A DNA stretch of 64,000 nucleotides from Actinomycetota bacterium. GTDB lineage: Bacteria > Actinomycetota > UBA4738 > HRBIN12. Each line of letters begins with the position of its first letter. The stretch's first letter is position 1. The notes under the pieces were generated by a model that was not told where the DNA came from, made no database searches, and was given only the letters and a program-made list of their open reading frames with translations. The stretch spans positions 62,001-126,000 of the forward strand of contig DASQWI010000026.1 of the NCBI GenBank assembly GCA_035640355.1, given 5' to 3'. The position numbers and the translations under genes are program-made. Positions 1,082 through 19,521 of the stretch are shown here, one piece after another.

Positions 1082-1714
1082 TCACCGGACGACGAGCGCG
1101 ACCATCGCGAAGTGGCAGACGGCGGCCGCGACCTGGAAGGCATGCCACACCTCGTGGTAGCCGAACGTCGCCGGGCGAGGGTCGGGACGACGCCTGGCGA
1201 GCACGATCGCACCCCCCGTGTAGAGGAGCCCGCCGGCAATCATCAGAACCGCACCGGCCAGCCACATCGCGTCCACGAGTCGTGGGAGCGCGATGACGGC
1301 CAACCAACCAAGAGCCATGTACAGCACCGCGCTCGCGACGCCGAGCCCGTTCGGACGCGCCAGCTTCAGCGCCACGCCGACCGCGGCGCCGGACCACGCG
1401 GTGGACAGCAGGACCGCTTCCCATGGCCCGCGCAGCGCGAGGACCGTTACCGGGGTGTAGGTTCCCGCGATCAACACGTAGATCATCGAGTGGTCCAGGC
1501 TCTTCATGCGCACTCGCGCCCGCGGCGACCATCGACCGACGTGGTAGGCGGCGCTAGCGCCGAACAGCGCAACAAGGCTCGTTGCGTAGATCGATGCCAC
1601 GGCCGTCGCCACGGCGCCGCGCGCGATCAGCACGAGCGCGATCGCGGCCGGCACGGAGACGAAGAAGGCGGCCTGATGAATCTTGCCTCGAAGGCGAGGC
1701 ACAGGCGCTTCCAC
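1082..1714 (-). CDS. hemolysin III / YqfA-PAQR family membrane protein
   Basis: About 210 residues with seven predicted hydrophobic segments, as in the bacterial hemolysin III (PAQR-like) family. Family signature residues are present: SAAYH with the downstream RVRMKSLDHSMI segment and, near the C terminus, GYHEVWHAF. These His/Ser/Asp residues form the zinc site of PAQR proteins, which are putative ceramidase-like hydrolases. I chose the GTG at 1714 because a TAGGAT hexamer sits 8 nt upstream and it avoids overlap with the divergent ade start; an ATG at 1759 in the same frame is possible. The physiological role is unknown, and 'hemolysin' is a historical name. Confidence 0.8.
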   Translation of the reverse strand: MEAPVPRLRGKIHQAAFFVSVPAAIALVLIARGAVATAVASIYATSLVALFGASAAYHVGRWSPRARVRMKSLDHSMIYVLIAGTYTPVTVLALRGPWEAVLLSTAWSGAAVGVALKLARPNGLGVASAVLYMALGWLAVIALPRLVDAMWLAGAVLMIAGGLLYTGGAIVLARRRPDPRPATFGYHEVWHAFQVAAAVCHFAMVALVVR

Positions 1715-6317: not shown

Positions 6318-7730
6318 ATGGAGACAACGCCCCAGGACAGGACCCGTCCCCGTCACGAAGCCGGGCACGCCCACGCCGCGGAGCAGCCGTTCACCTATCC
6401 GCTCACGCGCGAGTACGTCGAGCCTGACTGGACCAGGATCCCCGGCTACCGCGACGTCACGAAGGAGGAGTGGGAGTCCGCGCAATGGCAGCGCGCCCAC
6501 ACCGTGAAGAACCTGAACGAGCTCAAACGGGCGCTCGGCGAGCTCCTCGACGACGAGCTTTACGCCGACATCGAGCGCGACCAGCTCGAGCGCGCCACGA
6601 TGTCGATGCTCCTCCCGCCGCAGATGCTGAACACGATGGACTTCGCCGATCTTCGCGCCGATCCGGTTCGCCGGTACATGGCACCCGCGTTCGGCGATCG
6701 CGCGACGGAGTTTCCCTCACACCCGATGGCCTCACGCGACTCCTTGCACGAAGCCGACATGTGGGCCGTCGAGGGACTCACCCATCGCTACCCGACCAAG
6801 GTCCTCGCGGAGCTGATCCCGACCTGTCCGCAGTATTGCGGTCACTGCACGCGGATGGACCTCGTGGGCAACGACACCGAGCAATTCCTGAAGTACAAGT
6901 TCGAGGCGAAGCAGAACGAGCGGTGGGACGCGATGCTCGACTACCTGCGGCGCACGCCGAGCGTCCGCGACGTCGTTGTCTCCGGCGGCGACATGGCGAA
7001 CGTCCCCATCAAGCGGTTGCAGGGGTGGCTCTTCCAGCTGCTCGACATCGAGAACGTTCGAGATGTTCGCATCGCCACGAAGGGCTTGATGGGCATCCCC
7101 CAGCACTTCCTCCAGGACGACGTGCTCGCCGGCTACGAGGCGATCGCCGAACGAGCGCATCAGCGCGGCGTCGAGGTGGCGATCCACACCCACGTGAACG
7201 CGGCGCAGCAGGTGACGCCGCTCGTCGGCAATGCCGTTCGGAAGATGCTCGACATGGGCTACCGCGACGTCCGCAACCAGGGAGTGCTGCTCCGCGGCGT
7301 GAACACCACCCCGAACCAGGTCCTCGAGCTCTGTTTCATGTTGCTCGATCACGCCAAGGTAATGCCCTACTACTTCTACATGTGCGACATGATCCCGAAC
7401 AGCGAGCACTGGCGACTCTCGGTATGGGAGGCACAGGACGTCCAGTTCGCGATCATGGGATATCTGCCGGGGTTCGCCACTCCTCGCTTCGTGTGCGACG
7501 TCCCGTTCGTCGGTAAGCGCTGGGTTCACATGGTGAGCGGATACGACCGCACGAAGGGGATCTCTCGCTGGCGCAAGAACTACCGAACGGGAATCGAGCA
7601 CGACGACCCGGAGGCGCTCCAGCGCGAGTACCCCTACTACGACCCGATCTACACGCTCCCCGAGGAGGGTCAGGCGTACTGGCGCGAGTTCCTGGCGCGC
7701 GAACGAGGCCTCGAGCTCACCCCCGTCTGA
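6318..7730 (+). CDS. KamA-family radical SAM aminomutase (lysine 2,3-aminomutase-like)
   Basis: 470 residues. The radical SAM motif is CPQYCGHC (CxxxCxxC), in [17 protein letters not shown], followed by [10 protein letters not shown]. The segment [11 protein letters not shown] corresponds to the substrate/zinc-Cys region of clostridial KamA. The PLP lysine region is altered: the usual GGGGK is VPFVGKRW here, with the Lys retained. The C-terminal zinc cysteines of clostridial KamA are absent. It likely interconverts alpha- and beta-amino acids using SAM and PLP; lysine as substrate is inference. ATG 6318 has GAGAGG upstream. It converges on an orphan polyamine-type binding protein 6 bp away. 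Confidence 0.85.
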
Positions 7731-7736
7731 CCGCGC

Positions 7737-8969
7737 TCACGCCTCGGTCACCGTGCCGAACTTCTCCGCCCACGCCTGGAACGTCTCGGCGTCGTACGCG
7801 TGGTACTCGTGCAGGTTTGCCTCGAGCGGGTTGTCGGGCGGGAACAGCAGTGGGCTCTCGGCGAGCGTCTCGTAGTACTGCGCCGTCCCACCGCGCGACT
7901 GCTGCGCCTTCTCCCGCATGAGCTCCTGCACGCCGGCGACGGGCGTCATGTACAGGACCCAGTCGGTCACCTGCACGGCGATCTCGGGCTGGTAGAACCA
8001 GTCCAGAAACAGGTGCGCGTCGGTTGGGTGCTCCGCGCGCGCCGGGATCTCGAGCGGCGTCACCCACAGCATGCCGCCCTCCTCCGGCACCACGAATTCG
8101 AGATCCGGAAGACCGGCTATGTACTTGTAATAGAAGACGTCGCCGGACCAGGCCATCGTGGCCCACGTGTTCCCCGACGCCATCTCGTCGACATAGTCCT
8201 GGCCGTAGTAGCCGCGAACGATGCCCGCCTCCCGCTGCTCGATCAGTCGTTCGGTGGCACGATCCACGTCGTCGAGGGTCGCGTCCTTCGGCTCCACACC
8301 CTGCATCAGCAGCGTGAGGCTCACGGTGTCGACCAGTTCGGTCAGCATGCCGACGTGACCGGCCAGCCGCTCGTCCCACAGGTCGGCGAAGCGACGGATC
8401 TCGAACCCGGTGCGGTTGGGGTCGTACGCGATACCGGTCACTCCACCCTGCCACGGCACGCTGTATGCGTTCATGGGGTCGTACGACGGATCGCGGAACG
8501 CCGGCAGGAGGTTCTCGCCGACGTGCGGGATCCGATCGCGGTCGAGGGGCTCGATCCAGCCCGCCTGCCGCATCAGTCCGGCCACCCAGTCAGACAGCGC
8601 GATGAGATCCCAGCCGGTATCACGCTCCTGTTCGAAGAACGGGACCAGCGCAGCGAAGAACTGCTGGTTGTCGTTGATCACCTCGCGGTAGCGAACGTCG
8701 ATGTCGTACTCGCTCTCGAACGCCTCGAGCGTGGGGCGGTGTCCGCCGCGCGCCCGGTCGATGTACAGCGGCCACTGTGCGACGGAGAGCTCACCGGCAA
8801 CGGGCGGCAGCGGCTCGTTCGTCCCGCGCACCTCGGCCCCGTCGGATCCGCACGCCGCGAGGAGCGCTCCGAGCGTGCTTGCGCCGAGCGCACCACGACC
8901 GGCGCCACGAAGCAGTCGCCGCCGCGAGATCGGTCGTTCCAGCCAGCGTTGCAGGTCGCCGTAGATCAT
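7737..8969 (-). CDS. Tat-exported ABC transporter substrate-binding lipoprotein, PotD-like
   Basis: 410 residues. The N terminus has a twin-arginine motif (SRRRLLRGAG) and a lipobox LLAAC, so it is predicted to be Tat-exported and lipid-anchored. The rest is a type II periplasmic binding fold like spermidine/putrescine-binding PotD (FFAALVPFFEQ, WDLIALSDWVAGLM, YSVPWQGGVTGIAYD, WATMAWSGDVFYY). ATG 8969 is chosen since AAGGGGGGCGG lies just upstream and the signal follows directly. No permease or ATPase genes are adjacent. The ligand could be a polyamine or a related cation; the neighbouring aminomutase makes a beta-amino acid or diamine a fair guess, nothing more. Confidence 0.88.
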   Translation of the reverse strand: MIYGDLQRWLERPISRRRLLRGAGRGALGASTLGALLAACGSDGAEVRGTNEPLPPVAGELSVAQWPLYIDRARGGHRPTLEAFESEYDIDVRYREVINDNQQFFAALVPFFEQERDTGWDLIALSDWVAGLMRQAGWIEPLDRDRIPHVGENLLPAFRDPSYDPMNAYSVPWQGGVTGIAYDPNRTGFEIRRFADLWDERLAGHVGMLTELVDTVSLTLLMQGVEPKDATLDDVDRATERLIEQREAGIVRGYYGQDYVDEMASGNTWATMAWSGDVFYYKYIAGLPDLEFVVPEEGGMLWVTPLEIPARAEHPTDAHLFLDWFYQPEIAVQVTDWVLYMTPVAGVQELMREKAQQSRGGTAQYYETLAESPLLFPPDNPLEANLHEYHAYDAETFQAWAEKFGTVTEA

Positions 8970-10428: not shown

Positions 10429-12057
10429 TCAGTCGAACGGTGAGCCGATCGTCCGAAGGTAGGGCCACCCCGCGCGGAAGTGCGCGAACGACGTTCCGTA
10501 CGGGCATTCGTCGCGCAGCGGGAGCACCAGCTTCTTGAACCTCGGATTCTCAAAGTCGAAGGCGCCGAGCAACGGATTCGCGTGCCGATCGCGCGCCGTC
10601 ATCGGTTCGAGGCCGAACAGCTGCTCGATGAACGCCAGCACCGAGCTGAACTCGTAGGTCGTCGTGTCGACGTACCCGCCGTCGCGGCTTTCGCCGGACC
10701 GCGTGTACGGGCTGATGATGAGCGCGGGCGTGCGCGGGCCGAGACCCATGATGTCCGTCTGCGGGGGAGGTACGGGGTCGTAGAAGCCGCCGAAGTCGTC
10801 CCACACCACGACGATCGCCGTCGACTCCCAGTACTCGCTCTTCATGATCGTGTTGATCTGGTGCACGGTCCAGTTCTCTCCGGCGCAGACGGACTTCCCG
10901 CCACCGGGATGTTCGTTGTACGACTCGGACGGGACGATCCAGGAGACCTCGGGCATCTCGCCGACGCGGACGTCTCGCACGAAGTTCTCCGGCGGCTCCA
11001 CCTTCCTCCACATGGGACCGCGTCGGACGTGGCGGATCATCTGGAGAGCGTTCATCCATGCGTTCTCGTTCGCGTAGTACTTCCAGCTGATCCCGGCCTC
11101 CTCGAGCTGGTCGGGGAGCACCGCGATGTCGAAGCACAGACGGATGCTTCCCCAGTACTCGGCGAGGTCGTACGTGTTCGATCCGTTCGACGTGATGTCT
11201 CGTTCGAGCTCGAGGATCCGCTTCTCGTTCGCGCGGGCTGCCGGAGGGTTGAACCGTGTCGCGTACTCCGTGGTGTCGTCACAGTAGTTTCCCTCGTGAT
11301 CCGTCGTCGACTTGTTGTCGACGATGTAGTTCGCCTGCGCCGCAACCGTGTACAGGTGTTCCGGCAACGTCGGCCCGTACATCGAAGTGAAGAAGTGGTC
11401 GGCCAGCACGAATCGGTCGGCGTAGGCCCAGTAGTTCGGCAGCGTGTCGCGGTCGTGGTAGACGTACCCGGAGAGGTCGCCCCCGAATTCCGCCGCTCGG
11501 TCCCCCGACATCGGGATGACCCCGTTCATCCGGTTGAACCCGTTCATCTTGCCGCGGTTGATCGCAGTCAGGCCGCACCGAAAGCAGTGTGTCAGGTCGT
11601 GAGGCTGCACATCGGTCGCTGGCTGGAGGCGGACGATCGGCCCATCGCTGCACCCGTCCTCGGTGCACTCGATCGTGCCGCCGAGCGTCGCGCCGTCCGC
11701 GCCGGGATACGTCGCGAAGTAGTTGTTGAACGTTCGGTTCTCCTTGACGATGAACACCACGTGCTCGATCGGCGTCTCGCCGGGCACGATCACCGTCGGC
11801 TCGGATCCGTCGCCGTTCCCGTCGGGAGGACCACTCGGCGATGGCCCGCCGTTGCCCGCGCCGCTCGGCGATGGAGCAAGCGCCGATCCACCGTTTCCCT
11901 CCGGACGCCCCCACGCCCAAACCATCACCGCCGTGAGCAGCACGACGACGCCGACGAAGACCAGGAAACCGCGCCGGCGAGCGGCACGTCGTCGCTGGAA
12001 GCGGAGGCGGCTTCGCGGCACGGGCACGCGGGAGCCGGGCCCGGGCGTGTAGCTCAC
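10429..12057 (-). CDS. membrane-anchored phosphoesterase, paralogue of the preceding gene
   Basis: 542 residues. A basic N terminus (RFQRRRAARRRGFL), one membrane helix at about residues 30-50 (VFVGVVVLLTAVMVWAW), and a 40-residue Gly/Ser/Pro linker precede the phosphoesterase domain, which starts at IEHVVFIVKENRTFNNYFA. HCFRCGLTAINRGKMNGF and VVVWDDFGGFYDPVPPPQ match the same positions in the 9059-10426 protein. An insertion of about 60 residues around NYCDDTTEYATRFNPPAARA distinguishes the two. It is probably active outside the membrane. Different anchors (helix versus lipid) suggest the duplicates have diverged in location. Confidence 0.9.
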   Translation of the reverse strand: MSYTPGPGSRVPVPRSRLRFQRRRAARRRGFLVFVGVVVLLTAVMVWAWGRPEGNGGSALAPSPSGAGNGGPSPSGPPDGNGDGSEPTVIVPGETPIEHVVFIVKENRTFNNYFATYPGADGATLGGTIECTEDGCSDGPIVRLQPATDVQPHDLTHCFRCGLTAINRGKMNGFNRMNGVIPMSGDRAAEFGGDLSGYVYHDRDTLPNYWAYADRFVLADHFFTSMYGPTLPEHLYTVAAQANYIVDNKSTTDHEGNYCDDTTEYATRFNPPAARANEKRILELERDITSNGSNTYDLAEYWGSIRLCFDIAVLPDQLEEAGISWKYYANENAWMNALQMIRHVRRGPMWRKVEPPENFVRDVRVGEMPEVSWIVPSESYNEHPGGGKSVCAGENWTVHQINTIMKSEYWESTAIVVVWDDFGGFYDPVPPPQTDIMGLGPRTPALIISPYTRSGESRDGGYVDTTTYEFSSVLAFIEQLFGLEPMTARDRHANPLLGAFDFENPRFKKLVLPLRDECPYGTSFAHFRAGWPYLRTIGSPFD

Positions 12058-13749: not shown

Positions 13750-14775
13750 ATGAGCGTCCACCCGGCCCCGTCGTCCGCAGCGTTCACAAACGAGCCGCTG
13801 CTGGATTCGTTCGGCCGCGTCGCCGACGACCTCCGGCTCTCGGTGACCGACCGTTGCAACTTCCGCTGCACGTACTGCATGCCCGCGGAGGGCCTGAAGT
13901 GGCTCCCGAAGGACGAGATCCTGTCGTTCGAGGAGCTCGCACGGTTGCTGCGCCTGTTCGTCCGGCTCGGCGTCCGATCCGTCAAGGTGACCGGCGGCGA
14001 GCCGACCGTTCGCGCGGATCTTCCGTCGCTCGTGGCGATGCTTCGGGAGGCAGCGCCCGCCGTGGACATGTCGATGACGACGAACGGAGTGCTCCTCGAC
14101 CGGCTGGCGGGCCCGCTGGCGGCCGCGGGCCTCGACCGCGTGACGGTCTCGCTCGACTCGTTGCTCCGTCACCGGTTCGAGGAGATGACGCGGCGAGACG
14201 CGCTCGATCGCGTCCTCGCTGGGATCCGCGCCGCCGAAAGCGCCGGCCTCGTCCCGATCAAGATCAACTGCGTCGTGATCGGCGGCACAAACGAGGACGA
14301 GGTCGTCGAGTTCGCTCGGTGGTCACGCGAGCATGGGCATACCGTTCGGTTCATCGAGTACATGCCGCTCGATGCCGAGCATGCGTGGGAGCGCGCGAAG
14401 GTCGTCCCGTCGGCGCGGATCCTCGAGGCCATAGACGCGGTGTACCCGCTCGTCGCCGATGGGCCCGATCAGGAGCCCGCAACGAGCTACCGGTTCGCCG
14501 ACGGATCTGCCGGGGGGGTCGGCGTGATCGCCAGCGTCACCGAGCCGTTCTGCGACTCCTGCAACCGTCTTCGAATCACCGCCGAGGGGCAGCTCCGCGC
14601 GTGCCTGTTCGCGCTCGACGAGACCGACCTACGCGGTCCGATGCGCGCGGGCGCCGCTGACGAGGACCTCGAGGAGCTGATCCGCTCGAACGTGTGGGCG
14701 AAGTGGTCGGGGCACCGGATCAACCACCCCGACTTCGTGCAGCCCGAACGGAGCATGTCCGCGATCGGCGGCTGA
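13750..14775 (+). CDS. moaA: GTP 3',8-cyclase
   Basis: A radical SAM enzyme carrying out the first step of molybdopterin synthesis, with MoaC. 341 residues. The N-terminal cluster motif is CNFRCTYC in [22 protein letters not shown] is the SAM-binding GGE motif; the C-terminal second [4Fe-4S] site is CDSCNRLR plus Cys in QLRACLF. The chain ends in Gly-Gly (SAIGG), which is essential for activity in known MoaA. ATG 13750 is preceded by TACGAT 11 nt upstream. MoaC, MoaD and MoaE are not in this window. Confidence 0.96.
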
Positions 14776-14791
14776 CGGCGGCCGGCCTGGT

Positions 14792-15502
14792 TCAGCTTTC
14801 CTGCACGCCCGCGAGCCGGGCGAGGCCCGAGATCTTCCGCAGCACGAAGCGCCGACCGTCGCGCTCGACGTAGCCACGTCGCTGGAGGTCCGAGAGGATC
14901 CGCGTGACGTTCTCCCGGCTGCCGCCGCACAGACTCGCCAGGTCCGCGTGCGTGACCACCGAAGGGAGAACCGCACCGTCGGGCGGGAGGTCGTCGAGCG
15001 ACGGCGCGACGAGCTGCAGCAGCCGCTTGGCCACGCGTCCCTTGAGATCGAGGAACAGCAGGTCTTCGACGAACGCCTCGTGCGATTGCACCTGCCGCGA
15101 CAGCGCGCGGAGGATCGCCCGCGAGGCGGCCGACTCTTCCGTCACGAACTCGAGGAAGGTGGCACCCTGGACCGTCCACACCGACGACTCCTCGAGCGCG
15201 AGCGCCGCGGCCGTGCGAGGCATGCCACCGAGCACGCCGAGCTCGCCGAAGAACTGAGGACGATCGAGCGTCGTGTGCAGCTGCCGGTGGCCGCTCGCCG
15301 AGAGGGAGCTGATCTCCACACGGCCGTCCACCAGGAAGAAGACCTCGGGGGACTCATCGCCCTGGTGGAACAGATACGTGTTCCGCCGGTACCGGCGGAC
15401 CGAACCGCGGTCGGCGAGTCGCGCGATCATCTCGGCCGAGGCGCCCTCGAACAGCGGGGTACTCGCCATCATCGCTTCGAGGCCCGACACGCCGACCGCC
15501 AT
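14792..15502 (-). CDS. Crp/Fnr-family transcriptional regulator
   Basis: 236 residues. The cyclic-nucleotide-binding beta-roll spans about residues 15-125 (FFLVDGRVEIS, FFGELGVLGGMPRTAAALA), then a long dimer helix (SHEAFVEDLLFLDLKGRVAKRLLQL) and a Crp-type winged helix (VTHADLASLCGGSRENVTRILSDLQRRGYVE, about 185-215). The phosphate-binding cassette has FFGELGVLGGMPRTAA, close to the GE-L...RTA pattern of cAMP binders. No N-terminal Cys cluster, so not an oxygen-sensing Fnr. It lies between moaA and the PqqD-M50-cNBD operon, whose protein carries two domains of the same fold. Its targets are unknown. Confidence 0.9.
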   Translation of the reverse strand: MAVGVSGLEAMMASTPLFEGASAEMIARLADRGSVRRYRRNTYLFHQGDESPEVFFLVDGRVEISSLSASGHRQLHTTLDRPQFFGELGVLGGMPRTAAALALEESSVWTVQGATFLEFVTEESAASRAILRALSRQVQSHEAFVEDLLFLDLKGRVAKRLLQLVAPSLDDLPPDGAVLPSVVTHADLASLCGGSRENVTRILSDLQRRGYVERDGRRFVLRKISGLARLAGVQES

Positions 15503-15551
15503 ACGCCGTCAGCGTAGCCAGTCCGCACCTCCGCCGGGAGGCATCACAAAA

Positions 15552-15582
15552 GCAAGACCCGGGAACTCGTCCCGGGTCTTGC
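15552..15582 (-). terminator. strong intrinsic terminator of the small Lys-rich gene
   Basis: A perfect 13-bp stem (GCAAGACCCGGGA) with a 5-nt loop is followed on the minus strand by TTTTGTG. It closes the minus-strand group at 15.6-18.4 kb and insulates the Crp-like gene. Confidence 0.85.
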
Positions 15583-15606
15583 CAAACGGCGAGTGCGAAC
15601 CGCGCT

Positions 15607-15732
15607 CTACTTCTGCTTCCGCGCGCGCTTGGCCTTCCTCAGCCTCTTGGTCACCCGCGTCGCCGGCTCCGCCTTCGACGTCTTCGCCGTCGACTTCGTC
15701 GCCACCTTGGGAGTGATCTTCTTGTCCGCCAC
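15607..15732 (-). CDS. 41-residue Lys/Ala/Thr-rich basic protein
   Basis: The chain begins VADKKITPKVATKSTAKT and ends TKRLRKAKRARKQK; nearly a third of residues are Lys or Arg. GTG 15732 has GGGGGAGGTGACGAG directly upstream, a strong ribosome site that decides the start. Composition resembles the tails of bacterial histone H1-like proteins, suggesting nucleic-acid binding, but no domain can be assigned. It has its own terminator and lies 150 bp downstream of the Cys-rich gene. Confidence 0.6.
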   Translation of the reverse strand: MADKKITPKVATKSTAKTSKAEPATRVTKRLRKAKRARKQK

Positions 15733-15886
15733 CTCGTCACCTCCCCCGGGAGATCCAGCCCCTCCGATGAGAGGGGGCTTCACCAGGAACGCTCGAGGCG
15801 CATAGTGCGACGCCGAGCACGAGGTCGATGTGTCGGCGGTCACACACCCCTGCGTGACGTCGGTCACGGTTCGGATGTGACGACCG

Positions 15887-16105
15887 TCACACTTGCTCGT
15901 CGAGCTCCGGTAGGGACAGCGGATCGGGTCGAGGTGTGCACGCTCCGCAGAACAGCGCGTCCTCCACGATCAGCGCCCGGGTCACGTCGCCGGTCTTGAA
16001 CAGCTCGACCACGTACGGGAGGGTCTCCACGTGGTCGGCGCAGATACCTCGTCCGCAGAACCGACAGCTCCCCACGGCTGTCTTCCGGCAGTGCCAGCAA
16101 TCCAT
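15887..16105 (-). CDS. 72-residue Cys-rich zinc-binding protein (B-box/DUF2180-like)
   Basis: Ligand pattern CWHC (residues 3-6), CRFCGRGIC (14-22) and DH shortly after, then CGAC near residue 54: a treble-clef or B-box-like zinc site (C-x2-C, C-x2-C, C, H). It lies 14 bp downstream of the M50-cNBD gene, so it is translated from the same message. No catalytic residues are visible. It may be a protein-interaction adaptor for that complex (inference). Confidence 0.72.
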   Translation of the reverse strand: MDCWHCRKTAVGSCRFCGRGICADHVETLPYVVELFKTGDVTRALIVEDALFCGACTPRPDPLSLPELDEQV

Positions 16106-16119
16106 CGACAGGTCCCTCC

Positions 16120-18288
16120 TCAGTGCTCGGCCGTGCGCTCGATCGGAGCCGCGGACACGACGCCCCGGTGGAAGATGCCCGCAACGACCTGGTCGAACCC
16201 CTCGCGTTCGACCTCGAAGACGCGCATCGGCGTTCGCGCGACGACGGACGCCGTGCGAGGGATGCCCATGAGCAACGCGAGCTCGCCGAAGTGCTCTCCC
16301 GCGCCGATCGACCGGATCGCTTCGTCGTCCTGGAGCACCTCTGCGCGCCCCGACCCGATCACGTAGAACGCGTCACCGTGGTCACCCTGCTCGACCAGGA
16401 CCTCATCGGGCGAGACGGCGATCCATCGACCATGACGAAGCAGCTCCGCGATCGAGGCCGACCCGAGCGACGCGAACGGGGGGAGTGATCGGAGCTCCGC
16501 CGCTTGCTGAAGCGTCGGGGCGAAATCGGGAAGGTTGACGCTGTCGCTCAGCAGACGGTCGAACGTGCTCTCGTCGATCTCGAACAGCTGTGCGTCCACG
16601 ACCGGACGGACCGTCGCCGAACGCGGCGCACCGTCGACCAGGCCGAGCTCACCGAACATGTCTCCGCGCTCCAGCGCTCGGATGACGTTGTCCTTTCCTG
16701 TGCTCTCGTCCTCCTCGACGACCTCGAGCTTCCCCCGTCGGACAACGTAGAGGGCGTGGGGTCGATCTCCCTGGCGGAAGACGGGCTTGCCGGCCGGATA
16801 TCGCTTCAGCTGGACACGGCCCGCGAGGTCGGACAGCACATCCTCGGGCAGGTCTTCGAAGATCGGCGAGCCATCGATCAGCTCCGCGGCCTCGACGCGC
16901 CACCCCGTTTCGAGCTTGAACCTCAAGGCGTCGACCCATCCCTTGATCTTCTTCGCGAACGACCGCACGAGCTTGATCACCCCGCGGATGGCCGGACCCG
17001 CCACGAACAGGGCGAGAGCAATCAGAAGCAGTCGACCGAAGACGCCGCCGTCCCACAGCGCCGAGATGAGGCCACCGAAGATCGTCTCCCAGAAGAAGAA
17101 CGCAGTGAACACGGACAGGATCGTGAACGCGACGCCGACGATGCCGTAGAGCGCCAGCCCGACCTCCTGCTTCGTCACGCGCTCGCGTCGGCGCAGCTTG
17201 CGAAACAGGTCATACCGGATGAAGCGCAAGGACCGCGGACGGAGGTCCGGCACCTGGATCACATCCGCCAGGATGAAATAGCCGTCGAGCTCGAGCAGTG
17301 GGATGAGGTTCATGAAGATGACGAAATAGTTGATGACAGCCCAGGTGAAGAGGAACGGTGAGACCGCCGCGTGAGGAAAGGCCCAGATGAAGATCACGGC
17401 GATGCCCGAGACGATGAGCTCCGCGTACGGTCCGGCGAAGGACTGTGCGATCCGCTCCTTGCGGTCGAGCATCAGCACCTCCGACGACTCGACGAAGAAG
17501 ACGGGAGAGCCGAAATAGATCATGAAACCGGCGCTCTTCACCTTGCGTCCGTGGTGGACCAGGACGACGGCGTGGCCCAGCTCGTGGATGAAGGTCAGGA
17601 CGTAATCCATCCCCAGCAAGATGAATGTCTGGATCGCAGCCGATCCGCCGCCGAGCTCGAAGCGACCGCTTCGATACACGGCCGCGAAGGCGACCAAACC
17701 GAGAGCGGCCACGACGGCGGCGGCAACGCCCAATACCGGCGTGAAGAAGAAGCGGACGAAGCGACGGTACAACCAATCGACGAGCCGGTGCGCTCCGGCC
17801 CAATCGACGGAGAGCGTAGTGACGAACTCGCGCGTCTTCGCCCGCGCCAGCGACGCCGGGTGCGCCGCCCGATCGACGATCTTCCGAGCGTCGACGTACC
17901 GGTCGGTGAGGAAGTTCCCCACGCGCAGCTCACGGACGAGGTCGGCAACGCCGTCCAGCTCCATGTCGCCCGATTCCTGCAACCGCTCGACGACGATCTC
18001 GCGGACGGTCCGCGTTCCGTCCATCAACTGCAGGAGCGGAACGTCGTTCAGCGACAACTCGTAGTGCAACAGCTCCGTCGGGTTGGCGATCATCGCGTAG
18101 TCGTTGCCCCAACGAAGCCTGAAGGTCTTGACCTCGACGTCCGGTCGGAGCTGCGGGCGGTACGTGGCCGGGTCGAGGCGCTCCGACAGCCTCGACCAGA
18201 TCCCTCCTTCATGGTCCTGCTCCGGAGCTCTGGCCATCGCACCGTGCACGGCCCCGAAGACGCCACGCTCGCTCAGGATCTCGGTCAC
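16120..18288 (-). CDS. membrane M50-type metalloprotease with PqqD-like domain and two cyclic-nucleotide-binding domains
   Basis: 722 residues from GTG 18288. About 50-128: PqqD-like/RiPP-recognition fold (FRLRWGNDYAMIANPTELLHY, LMDGTRTVREIV). About 170-440: several membrane helices with the site-2-protease zinc motif HELGH (235-239) and a distal LDGYF (Asp about 335) as third ligand. About 476-581 and 606-708: two cNMP-binding beta-rolls (MFGELGLVDGAPRSATV and HFGELALLMGIPRTASV, both with GEL and RxA). Predicted: intramembrane protease or peptide-maturing enzyme gated by nucleotide or another ligand. Its start overlaps the stop of a small membrane protein (GTGA). The substrate is unknown. 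Confidence 0.85.
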   Translation of the reverse strand: MTEILSERGVFGAVHGAMARAPEQDHEGGIWSRLSERLDPATYRPQLRPDVEVKTFRLRWGNDYAMIANPTELLHYELSLNDVPLLQLMDGTRTVREIVVERLQESGDMELDGVADLVRELRVGNFLTDRYVDARKIVDRAAHPASLARAKTREFVTTLSVDWAGAHRLVDWLYRRFVRFFFTPVLGVAAAVVAALGLVAFAAVYRSGRFELGGGSAAIQTFILLGMDYVLTFIHELGHAVVLVHHGRKVKSAGFMIYFGSPVFFVESSEVLMLDRKERIAQSFAGPYAELIVSGIAVIFIWAFPHAAVSPFLFTWAVINYFVIFMNLIPLLELDGYFILADVIQVPDLRPRSLRFIRYDLFRKLRRRERVTKQEVGLALYGIVGVAFTILSVFTAFFFWETIFGGLISALWDGGVFGRLLLIALALFVAGPAIRGVIKLVRSFAKKIKGWVDALRFKLETGWRVEAAELIDGSPIFEDLPEDVLSDLAGRVQLKRYPAGKPVFRQGDRPHALYVVRRGKLEVVEEDESTGKDNVIRALERGDMFGELGLVDGAPRSATVRPVVDAQLFEIDESTFDRLLSDSVNLPDFAPTLQQAAELRSLPPFASLGSASIAELLRHGRWIAVSPDEVLVEQGDHGDAFYVIGSGRAEVLQDDEAIRSIGAGEHFGELALLMGIPRTASVVARTPMRVFEVEREGFDQVVAGIFHRGVVSAAPIERTAEH

Positions 18289-18446
18289 CGTTCCGGATCC
18301 CTTCGGGCCCGTTCTGCCTCCAGCCGTCTCCGAATCACGTCGTAGACCGACAGTCGTGGGCGCGCGCGTCGTTTCTGCGCGTACAGGTTGCCCGCCACGG
18401 CACCAACGAGAACGATCACCGCCAACGCCGCGAGCACGCCCTCCAC
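18285..18446 (-). CDS. 53-residue single-pass membrane protein
   Basis: One N-terminal membrane helix (VLAALAVIVLVGAVAGNLYA) followed by a basic cytosolic tail (KRRARPRLSVYDVIRRRLEAER). Its TGA overlaps the GTG of the M50-cNBD gene in the string GTGA, which predicts translational coupling and argues that it is real. Start GTG 18446 is preferred; TTG 18482 in frame would add 12 residues and place GGAAGG inside the coding part. Function unknown; probably a partner of the protease. Confidence 0.6.
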   Translation of the reverse strand: MEGVLAALAVIVLVGAVAGNLYAQKRRARPRLSVYDVIRRRLEAERARRDPER

Positions 18447-18660
18447 CCGGGCATCTTGGGCCCCTCCGTCCTTCCGGTGCAACGCGAGGGGGACGCGGTA
18501 TCGGATTCATGGCCTGGCCACATCACCGTCTTCGGCGCGACACACCGAGGGGCTAGCGTCGGGTCTGCCAAGAGGCATGCGCCCCTCTGGAGCGGGGAGC
18601 CGGCCGCGAAGGGCCGGCTCCCCGCGCCCCCTTCCCCACCCAGTCGGTCCGGCCCCCGTT
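18447..18660. terminator. intergenic region with strong 14-bp hairpin at 18592-18625
   Basis: The hairpin (GCGGGGAGCCGGCC, 6-nt loop, perfect complement) lies 36 bp past the stop of the minus-strand methyltransferase gene. It has no T-run, but its stability suggests transcript termination or 3'-end protection. The remaining bases should hold the promoter of the PqqD-M50-cNBD operon; I cannot place a convincing -10/-35 pair. Confidence 0.6.
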
Positions 18661-19521
18661 TCAGGGCGACCGACCGACGAGCACGCGCGTCACCTTGAAC
18701 CCGCGATCCATCGTGCTCCGTACGTCGCGGAACCCGGTTCGCCGCATCACGGAGCGCACGGCGCGCGCGCGATCGGGACTCACCTCGATCAGCAGCCAGC
18801 CGCCCGGACGGAGCCAGGCCGGCGCCTCGGTCGTGCTCCGTTCCACGATTCCCAGTCCATCGGGACTCCGGTCGGTGAGCGTGTGCGCCGGCTCCCACCG
18901 TCGGATCTCCTGGGGCAACTCCCGGAGCTCCGACCTGGCGACGTACGGCGGGTGCAAGGTCACGACGTCTACGCCGCCGCGGAGGTGCTTCGGCAGCCCG
19001 CCGTACAGATCACCGACCACGAACGTCGCTGGGAGGCGAAGCTTGCGCGCGTTTGCCCGTGCGACGCGGATCGCCTCGGGGGAGATGTCGGTGCCGTAGA
19101 CGCGCGCGCGCCGAACCTCGTTCACAACGGCCAGCGCGATGCCCCCTCCGCCGGTCGCGACATCCACGAGCACCGGTCGTCTCCTGCGACGCACCCGACG
19201 AACGGCCTGCTCTGCGAGGAACTCCGTCGAGTCCCGTGGGACGAACACGCCCGGCCGAGCGAGGACTTCCATACCACGGAAGATCGCGTACCCCTTGATC
19301 AACTGAACCGGCTCGCCCTTCACGCGACGCTCGATCATCCGCTCGAAGCGGCGCCGCTCGCCCGGGGAGACCTCCGTGTCGCGGTCGAAGTCCTCAGTAC
19401 CGATCGCGTGGCCGAGCAGGTCTTCAGCCTCGATGAGCTCGCGATCTCGTTGCCAGTGATCGATGGCCGGCGACGCCTTGAGTGTCTTGACGGCCTCGTC
19501 GACGAGATCCCCGGCGTTCAC
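18661..19521 (-). CDS. HemK/PrmC-like methyltransferase with altered NPPY motif
   Basis: 286 residues. An N-terminal helical domain similar to PrmC (EAEDLLGHAIG, RRVKGEPVQLIKG, PGVFVPRDSTEFL) precedes a class I SAM-binding domain: VDVATGGGGIAL (motif I), YGTDISPEA, VVGDLYGGLP. The catalytic NPPY, which positions the glutamine in release factors, reads HPPY here. It is probably a PrmC-derived methyltransferase with another substrate, or a degenerate PrmC. GTG 19521 is chosen from TAGGTT 8 nt upstream (leaderless) and homology. The partner prfA gene is not nearby. Confidence 0.8.
   Translation of the reverse strand: MNAGDLVDEAVKTLKASPAIDHWQRDRELIEAEDLLGHAIGTEDFDRDTEVSPGERRRFERMIERRVKGEPVQLIKGYAIFRGMEVLARPGVFVPRDSTEFLAEQAVRRVRRRRRPVLVDVATGGGGIALAVVNEVRRARVYGTDISPEAIRVARANARKLRLPATFVVGDLYGGLPKHLRGGVDVVTLHPPYVARSELRELPQEIRRWEPAHTLTDRSPDGLGIVERSTTEAPAWLRPGGWLLIEVSPDRARAVRSVMRRTGFRDVRSTMDRGFKVTRVLVGRSP

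Follow-up and report, generated by a model that had tools for sequence, protein, structure and literature searches.

A conserved actinobacterial gene cassette around an RRE-bearing M50 protease with paired cyclic-nucleotide-binding domains

Introduction

Peptidases of the M50 family that carry a recognition element (RRE) for ribosomally synthesised and post-translationally modified peptides (RiPPs) are known from peptide-maturation pathways, and for MpaP, an intramembrane peptidase, RRE-dependent removal of the leader is described (PMC10036551). A protein of this kind is encoded in the DNA considered here, a stretch of 64,000 nucleotides (the window; from contig DASQWI010000026.1) of an uncultured soil actinobacterium with a genome of 2.79 Mb. 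On the minus strand, from position 18446 to 15607, four genes follow one another, encoding (i) a 53-residue protein with a single transmembrane (TM) segment, (ii) a 722-residue protein with an RRE/PqqD-like domain, an M50 site-2 protease (S2P) core and two C-terminal cyclic-nucleotide-binding domains (cNBDs), (iii) a 72-residue Cys/His protein, here called the Zn mini-protein, and (iv) a 41-residue Lys-rich peptide of what we call the KKITPK family. The cassette spans about 3.7 kb. An earlier reading of the window, the original prediction, saw in it an operon around a ligand-gated protease with dedicated small partners.

The best NCBIfam profile for the window protease is the daptide RRE-peptidase (NF041824), which spans the RRE and the M50 core (E 1e-45, 156.6 bits). 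The window protease shares this membrane core with DapP/MpaP, but does not reach the equivalog cut-off of 300; its cassette has cNBDs, the Zn mini-protein and the KKITPK peptide in addition, whereas the aminotransferase, decarboxylase and methyltransferase of DapP/MpaP clusters are absent around it. With a score about half of the cut-off and no tailoring genes in the cassette, daptide membership was rejected. The epipeptide metalloprotease YydH/LiaK (NF058609) is likewise the M50 core of a RiPP pathway, but scores only 48.9 bits in the window protease against a cut-off of 225, differs in architecture, and belongs with a RiPP radical SAM gene that the conserved cassette lacks.

Three other systems share parts of the design. 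Group III site-2 proteases with CBS domains, in the classes of Kinch (2006) as relayed in a review (PMC10202637), also couple an S2P core to a ligand-sensing module, whereas the sensor here is a cNBD pair plus an RRE; that review mentions neither cyclic nucleotides (cNMPs) nor PqqD. The regulatory subunit of PKA, and PKG, contain two consecutive cNBDs with a conserved phosphate-binding cassette (PBC), as found here, except that the window pair is fused to a protease and does not control a kinase. PrsW (PF13367) is an unrelated protease family, and two of its members, in genomes G041 and G111, have a Zn mini-protein of the same family and paired GxWxxL motifs in their tails, but no cNBD, RRE, peptide or operator array. 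A search of the open-access literature returned no report of a PqqD-M50-cNBD protein or an S2P-cNBD fusion, an absence that is itself weak evidence. The system is known in kind, as an RRE-bearing M50 peptidase, and new in its combination of a tandem cNBD module, a Zn mini-protein shared with PrsW, a CRP-type operator array and a KKITPK peptide.

The protease and its domains

Judged by its sequence, the window protein is a predicted M50 site-2 protease. Pfam recovers Peptidase_M50 at 34.2 bits (cut-off 27.2), the HELGH and LDG motifs of the original prediction are in place, and Glu236, His239 and Asp335 do not vary among 17 orthologues aligned at a mean column identity of 65%. PrsW (PF13367), CBS and PDZ domains have no match in it. 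The survey covered 27 genomes of the class and 397 of the phylum, mostly metagenome-assembled, and its counts treat genomes as independent, although they are related by descent. Orthologues with 47–93% identity occur in 16 of the 27 class genomes; outside it they have a scattered distribution over other families, in six more of the 397 phylum genomes (G049, with two copies, G060, G063, G086, G220 and G378). Given 17 orthologues aligning at this identity with invariant catalytic residues, conservation rules out a chance array of open reading frames (ORFs), and the genes very likely form a functional cassette built around the RRE-bearing S2P.

The assignment of a winged-helix-like RRE fold, with three strands and helices, to the N-terminal domain is supported by modelling. 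Predicted alone by AlphaFold2, the domain reaches a pLDDT of 85, and its six best Foldseek matches in the PDB are all TbiB1/lasso-peptide B1 RREs whose structures were determined together with leader peptides (prob 0.97–1.00, TMt 0.61–0.66), the seventh match falling to a prob of 0.21. The best E-value is modest (8e-3), and the support lies in the agreement of several comparisons: the region has a profile match to PaaA (5ff5, E 0.011), three family members match TIGR04248 (SCM_PqqD_rel), and the homologue L102 matches PF05402 (PqqD) in the equivalent region at 2.7e-4, just below the cut-off. PF05402 finds no match in the window protein or in 16 orthologues, and assignment to PqqD by Pfam sequence alone was dropped in favour of the structure and the L102 match. 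The structural match on which the original prediction had staked this domain is thereby obtained. A model of the whole protein (17 sequences) has a pTM of 0.47 and its domain arrangement is not used; its listed Foldseek matches are to cNBD proteins only.

Pfam places two cNMP_binding domains at the C-terminus, above cut-off (E 7e-42), where two had been claimed. Both phosphate-binding cassettes (FGE...R[ST]A) are intact, and the PBC Glu and Arg, kept in nearly all of the 17 aligned orthologues, suggest that the domains are competent to bind ligand. The closest PDB structures to the pair are the tandem cNBDs of PKA-R/PKG. The organism's own genome encodes 23 class III cyclase domains, and a cyclase gene adjoins two divergent loci, a CHASE2-cyclase gene upstream of the Zn and protease genes in L100 and a cyclase gene downstream of the peptides in L097. 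We consider control of the protease by a cNMP probable; the nucleotide, whichever it is, would then gate proteolysis.

The Zn mini-protein and its two protease families

The Zn mini-protein is conserved even beyond the protease (mean column identity 81% versus 65%). Eight predicted ligands (C3, C6, C14, C17, C22, H25, C53 and C56) are invariant in 19 Zn proteins, and the end of the protein is conserved as PRPDPxxLPELD; matches to DUF2180, the NSD C5HCH domain and other zinc fingers stay below threshold, and the protein was left without a family assignment. In every class locus whose sequence extends far enough, its gene lies directly 3' of the protease gene. Among the 397 genomes it is found in 21, of which 19 carry the protease (19 of the 22 protease genomes); G016, G021 and G086 carry the protease but not the mini-protein, and in each a contig end cuts the protease gene. 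It is also kept at the distant loci L097, L098, L100 and L101, where gene order is partly altered: it stands upstream in L100, and in L097 the order is Zn, Crp, trypsin, protease, peptide, peptide, cyclase. Because the order differs, the linkage in other families is more than conserved synteny.

Where the M50 protease is missing, the Zn mini-protein occurs in 2 of 375 genomes, G041 and G111, both times beside a PrsW-type intramembrane metalloprotease. These two proteases match PF13367 at 2e-22 and 1.5e-18, their PrsW subtype is present in exactly these two of the 397 genomes, and their Zn partners retain all eight ligands. Of the claim that the protease has dedicated small partners, the co-occurrence holds, both for the Zn mini-protein and for the Lys-rich peptide, which is present in every testable class locus; "dedicated" does not, as the Zn mini-protein also pairs with PrsW proteases.

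The two protease families have a tail motif in common. The N-terminal tail of the M50 proteins, modelled with low confidence and probably disordered, in most orthologues contains the motif [GD]-[VLI]-W-x-x-[LV] once or twice, with 20 matches in 810 residues of tail against 24 in 11,889 residues elsewhere. Each of the two PrsW proteins has exactly two matches, all within the last 50 residues. Docking of the Zn mini-protein on GxWxxL is a tentative proposal. A still more doubtful one makes the mini-protein family, not recognised before, a docking adaptor common to M50 and PrsW proteases through paired GxWxxL motifs, the M50 branch being a cAMP-gated, RRE-guided protease that matures a cationic peptide controlled by the CRP-type array.

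The basic peptide and its operator array

The Lys-rich ORF is best taken as a real gene, because it is conserved in every class locus with sequence there, usually behind a strong Shine-Dalgarno (SD) sequence. It belongs to a KK[IV]xPK family in which the N-terminal KK[IV]xPK block is followed by an ATRV[TS]K block and a variable, repetitive basic tail. In the 11 class genomes that lack the protease, no KKIxPK peptide is found; a pattern match in G008 (GTGGCGACGAAGAAGGTCCTGGCCAAG) was discarded, as it is not the KKIxPK motif. Between the window and its sister species (L029, 8556–8684), 2 of 39 peptide codons and 206 of 722 protease codons differ (binomial p 3e-4), and the near-unchanged state of the peptide gene, synonymous sites included, suggests constraint at the DNA or RNA level too. 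With a conserved N-terminal block, a variable tail and an RRE protein alongside, the layout fits a RiPP precursor, the leader of which is not recognised; the KKITPK peptides scanned match no known precursor family. Tandem copies of the peptide adjoin the protease in L097 and L100.

Between the Zn stop codon and the peptide start, the 13 loci examined hold two to four GTGA-N6-TCAC palindromes (at most one mismatch), mostly spaced 22–24 bp apart. The organism's own genome has a single exact match to the paired pattern. The pattern is present in 9 of 16 protease-positive and none of 11 protease-negative class genomes (Fisher p 0.002, phylogeny not corrected for), whereas its reversed control has no occurrence; the distant loci L097, L098 and L100 lack the paired array. 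Single-site matches in the window (at most two mismatches) are no more frequent than chance, so the signal is the array and not the single site. A Crp-like gene has nearly the same distribution as the protease (15 of 16 protease-positive against 1 of 11 protease-negative class genomes), the positive genome lacking it, G015, being 66% complete. In E. coli CRP, Arg-Glu...Arg of the recognition helix reads GTGA, and the Crp-like helix SRENVTRIL keeps these residues. The Crp-like protein is the likely reader of the putative operator array. Since the peptide gene has an array of its own, its expression is probably controlled independently of the protease. The tandem 23–24-bp array is also a handle for finding further members.

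Two further genomic copies of the array were inspected. The one in G004 (C8) either lies within a redox-enzyme ORF or coincides with its start; the one in G021 (C56), a second CRP-type pair array of that genome (L116, about 1500–1540), precedes an FAD-type oxidoreductase and is close to a moaA-like gene.

Distant homologues

Distant relatives show the core in other settings. At L101 the protease homologue is 1152 residues long with a C-terminal extension, the Zn mini-protein is kept, and two proteins resembling NHLP/Os1348-type RiPP precursors are encoded nearby (6985–7965 and 10637–10978, both minus strand), one of them at 40.5 bits against a cut-off of 40. At L108 a 51-residue peptide (1156–1311, plus strand; MKIKPVQP...PSRRTLGFKYHPSRRTLVAKFHPSRRTMFGRIHP) with three tandem PSRRTx repeats immediately precedes an M50 relative with a seemingly degenerate RRE region, and the peptide looks like a multi-core RiPP precursor. 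RiPP-like precursors thus adjoin two distant homologues, which strengthens the link to peptide processing.

Three further proteins, from other actinobacteria (L102, 4428–6371; L103, 4182–5873; L104, 4822–6561; all plus strand) combine an N-terminal FHA domain with RRE/PqqD and M50, and have no cNBD. As in the window, an RRE-M50 core is joined to a signalling domain, with the FHA domain N-terminal there and the cNBDs C-terminal here, and the core is therefore reused with other sensor domains.

At L097 (255–8403, minus strand) the Zn and Crp genes are accompanied by a secreted trypsin-type protease, the S2P, two tandem KKIQPK peptides and a class III cyclase with an AAA domain. L100 (2679–7697, plus strand) holds the CHASE2-cyclase, the Zn mini-protein, the S2P, two KKIEPK peptides ending in a Peptidase_S74-like start, and a small S74-domain protein.

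Proposed mechanism and alternatives

The best explanation of the locus, to which we give a probability of roughly 0.45, is a cassette for intramembrane proteolysis linked to a cyclic nucleotide. What the analysis shows is the domain content, the RRE fold, the conservation of catalytic and ligand residues, the co-occurrence of the genes, the operator array and the Zn partner in common with PrsW. The RRE-fold domain of the membrane protease would bind a peptide in the form of a beta-strand, and the PKA-regulatory-like domain pair would switch the protease on binding of cAMP (or cGMP). The co-translated Zn mini-protein would dock on the GxWxxL motifs of the disordered tail as an adaptor or activator, while the small TM protein, separate or fused, would anchor or position the complex. 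The KKITPK peptide, made from a strong SD under the tandem CRP-type array as read by the adjacent Crp-like protein, would be delivered by the RRE to the protease and cleaved into an active form. That the basic peptide is the substrate, as the original prediction had ventured, is possible rather than probable.

Several observations weigh against this explanation. The orthologue at L035 (6001–7884, plus strand) has DEMGH in place of HELGH, with His235 replaced by Asp, and is possibly inactive. The proteases of L043 and L045 lack the Trp tail motif. The PrsW loci show neither the KKITPK peptide nor the paired array, which excludes specificity of the Zn mini-protein for the peptide. At about one per 110–120 kb, and clustered, cyclases are common enough to leave their adjacency in L097 and L100 suggestive only. 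The peptide has no recognised leader motif and no tailoring enzymes nearby, and co-occurrence within one class is partly shared descent.

The membrane protein upstream offers another substrate. In nine relatives (L030–L032, L034, L035, L037–L040) a protein of about 200 residues precedes the protease, with a signal-peptide-like N-terminus, an ectodomain (nothing above cut-off in Pfam or NCBIfam), one TM segment and a conserved basic tail, SVYxxIxRR. The 53-residue window protein matches the last 48 residues of the full-length L030 protein (50%, E 9e-14) and, by this alignment, is the TM and basic-tail remnant of a larger ectodomain-TM protein; the membrane partner originally proposed is indeed translationally coupled to the protease, but as a truncated form and not as a stand-alone partner family. 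Classical regulated intramembrane proteolysis would make this protein the substrate, its cleavage gated by the cNMP, and the peptide a separately expressed effector. A single-pass protein adjacent to an S2P and translationally coupled or near it is what such a scheme would use, and the window form looks like such a substrate after loss of its ectodomain. Nevertheless, in L036, L042 and L045 the protease has a comparable TM-basic segment fused to its N-terminus, which is more like an anchor or subunit, the gene is not seen before the protease in L033, L041 and L044, and the RRE domain is left unexplained. We regard this alternative as unlikely, while rating it above those that follow.

Somewhat less likely again is that the basic peptide is an independent, CRP-regulated protein that binds nucleic acid or the envelope, sharing locus and signal with the protease but neither cleaved nor bound by it. 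Its net charge of +8 to +17 in about 35–53 residues, its low-complexity tails, and its own array, SD and following terminator would suit such a role. This alternative sits poorly with the peptide's position next to the protease in two other families, where it is repeated in tandem and gene order is partly rearranged, with its absence from protease-less class genomes, and with the RiPP-like peptides beside distant homologues. A degenerate or housekeeping M50 protein, kept by shared descent among functionally unlinked genes, would account for the missing first His of HExxH at L035, but is very improbable given that the catalytic residues are conserved in 16 of 17 orthologues, that linkage of the Zn, peptide and other genes has survived rearrangement in other families, and that the Zn mini-protein, where it occurs without the protease, is both times with PrsW.

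The cassette bears on how small ligands switch bacterial site-2 proteases and on whether these use soluble adaptors. It brings together an intramembrane protease that is probably gated by a second messenger and has a peptide-recognition domain, a candidate adaptor whose motif can be tested, and candidates for the substrate and for the regulator, the latter with its operator. As a partner of PrsW as well, the Zn mini-protein would serve two unrelated families of intramembrane protease.

Locus layout and neighbouring features

All elements of the original prediction are found where it placed them on the minus strand (Table 1). Its 4-nt overlap and 14-bp spacing are correct, but the Lys-rich ORF does not follow directly behind the Zn gene, from which it is separated by 154 bp. 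The terminator is the only terminator-like site in 4.3 kb. An Rfam scan of 14500–19000 gave no structured RNA match, and a sigma-70 promoter scan found none, a scan that an actinobacterial promoter might escape.

Table 1. Positions of the features of the cassette (in the window unless a locus is named)
Feature	Position	Strand	Remarks
53-aa single-TM protein	18285..18446	-	GTG start, 4-nt overlap with protease start
722-aa RRE(PqqD-like)-M50 predicted site-2 protease with two C-terminal cNBDs	16120..18288	-	
Tail motif G-[VLI]-[WF]-x-x-[LV], copy 1 (GVFGAV)	18247..18264	-	candidate Zn-protein docking motif
Tail motif, copy 2 (GIWSRL)	18187..18204	-	candidate Zn-protein docking motif
RRE/PqqD-like domain	17905..18156	-	about residues 45-128
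HELGH zinc-binding/catalytic motif	17572..17586	-	residues 235-239
Second motif NLIPLLELDG	centred near 17285	-	N327/P330/LDG 334-336
cNBD 1	16543..16884	-	phosphate-binding cassette FGELGLVDGAPRSATV
cNBD 2	16177..16503	-	phosphate-binding cassette FGELALLMGIPRTASV
72-aa Zn mini-protein	15887..16105	-	starts 14 bp after protease stop
CRP-type operator 1, perfect TGTGA-N6-TCACA	15876..15891		putative; overlaps Zn stop codon
CRP-type operator 2 (CGTGACGTCGGTCACG)	15853..15868		putative; 23 bp from operator 1
CRP-type operator 3 (TGTGTCGGCGGTCACA)	15829..15844		putative; one mismatch; 24 bp from operator 2
Shine-Dalgarno GGAGGTGA of peptide gene	15737..15744	-	strong; shared by most orthologous loci
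41-aa basic peptide (KKITPK family)	15607..15732	-	154 bp after Zn stop
Intrinsic terminator ending the unit	15551..15583	-	14-bp stem
Crp/Fnr-type regulator	14792..15502	-	beyond terminator; recognition helix SRENVTRIL
Zn mini-protein beside PrsW-family protease	L148 5530-6836; L147 5802-7213	both -	

Genes near the cassette encode PrmC-like and MoaA-like proteins. G049 has another Zn copy, and an ORF close to it (L150, 5949–6548, minus strand) has the same cNBD start as the Crp-like protein of L097 and continues as a cyclase-like sequence, which may be a gene fusion or an assembly artefact.

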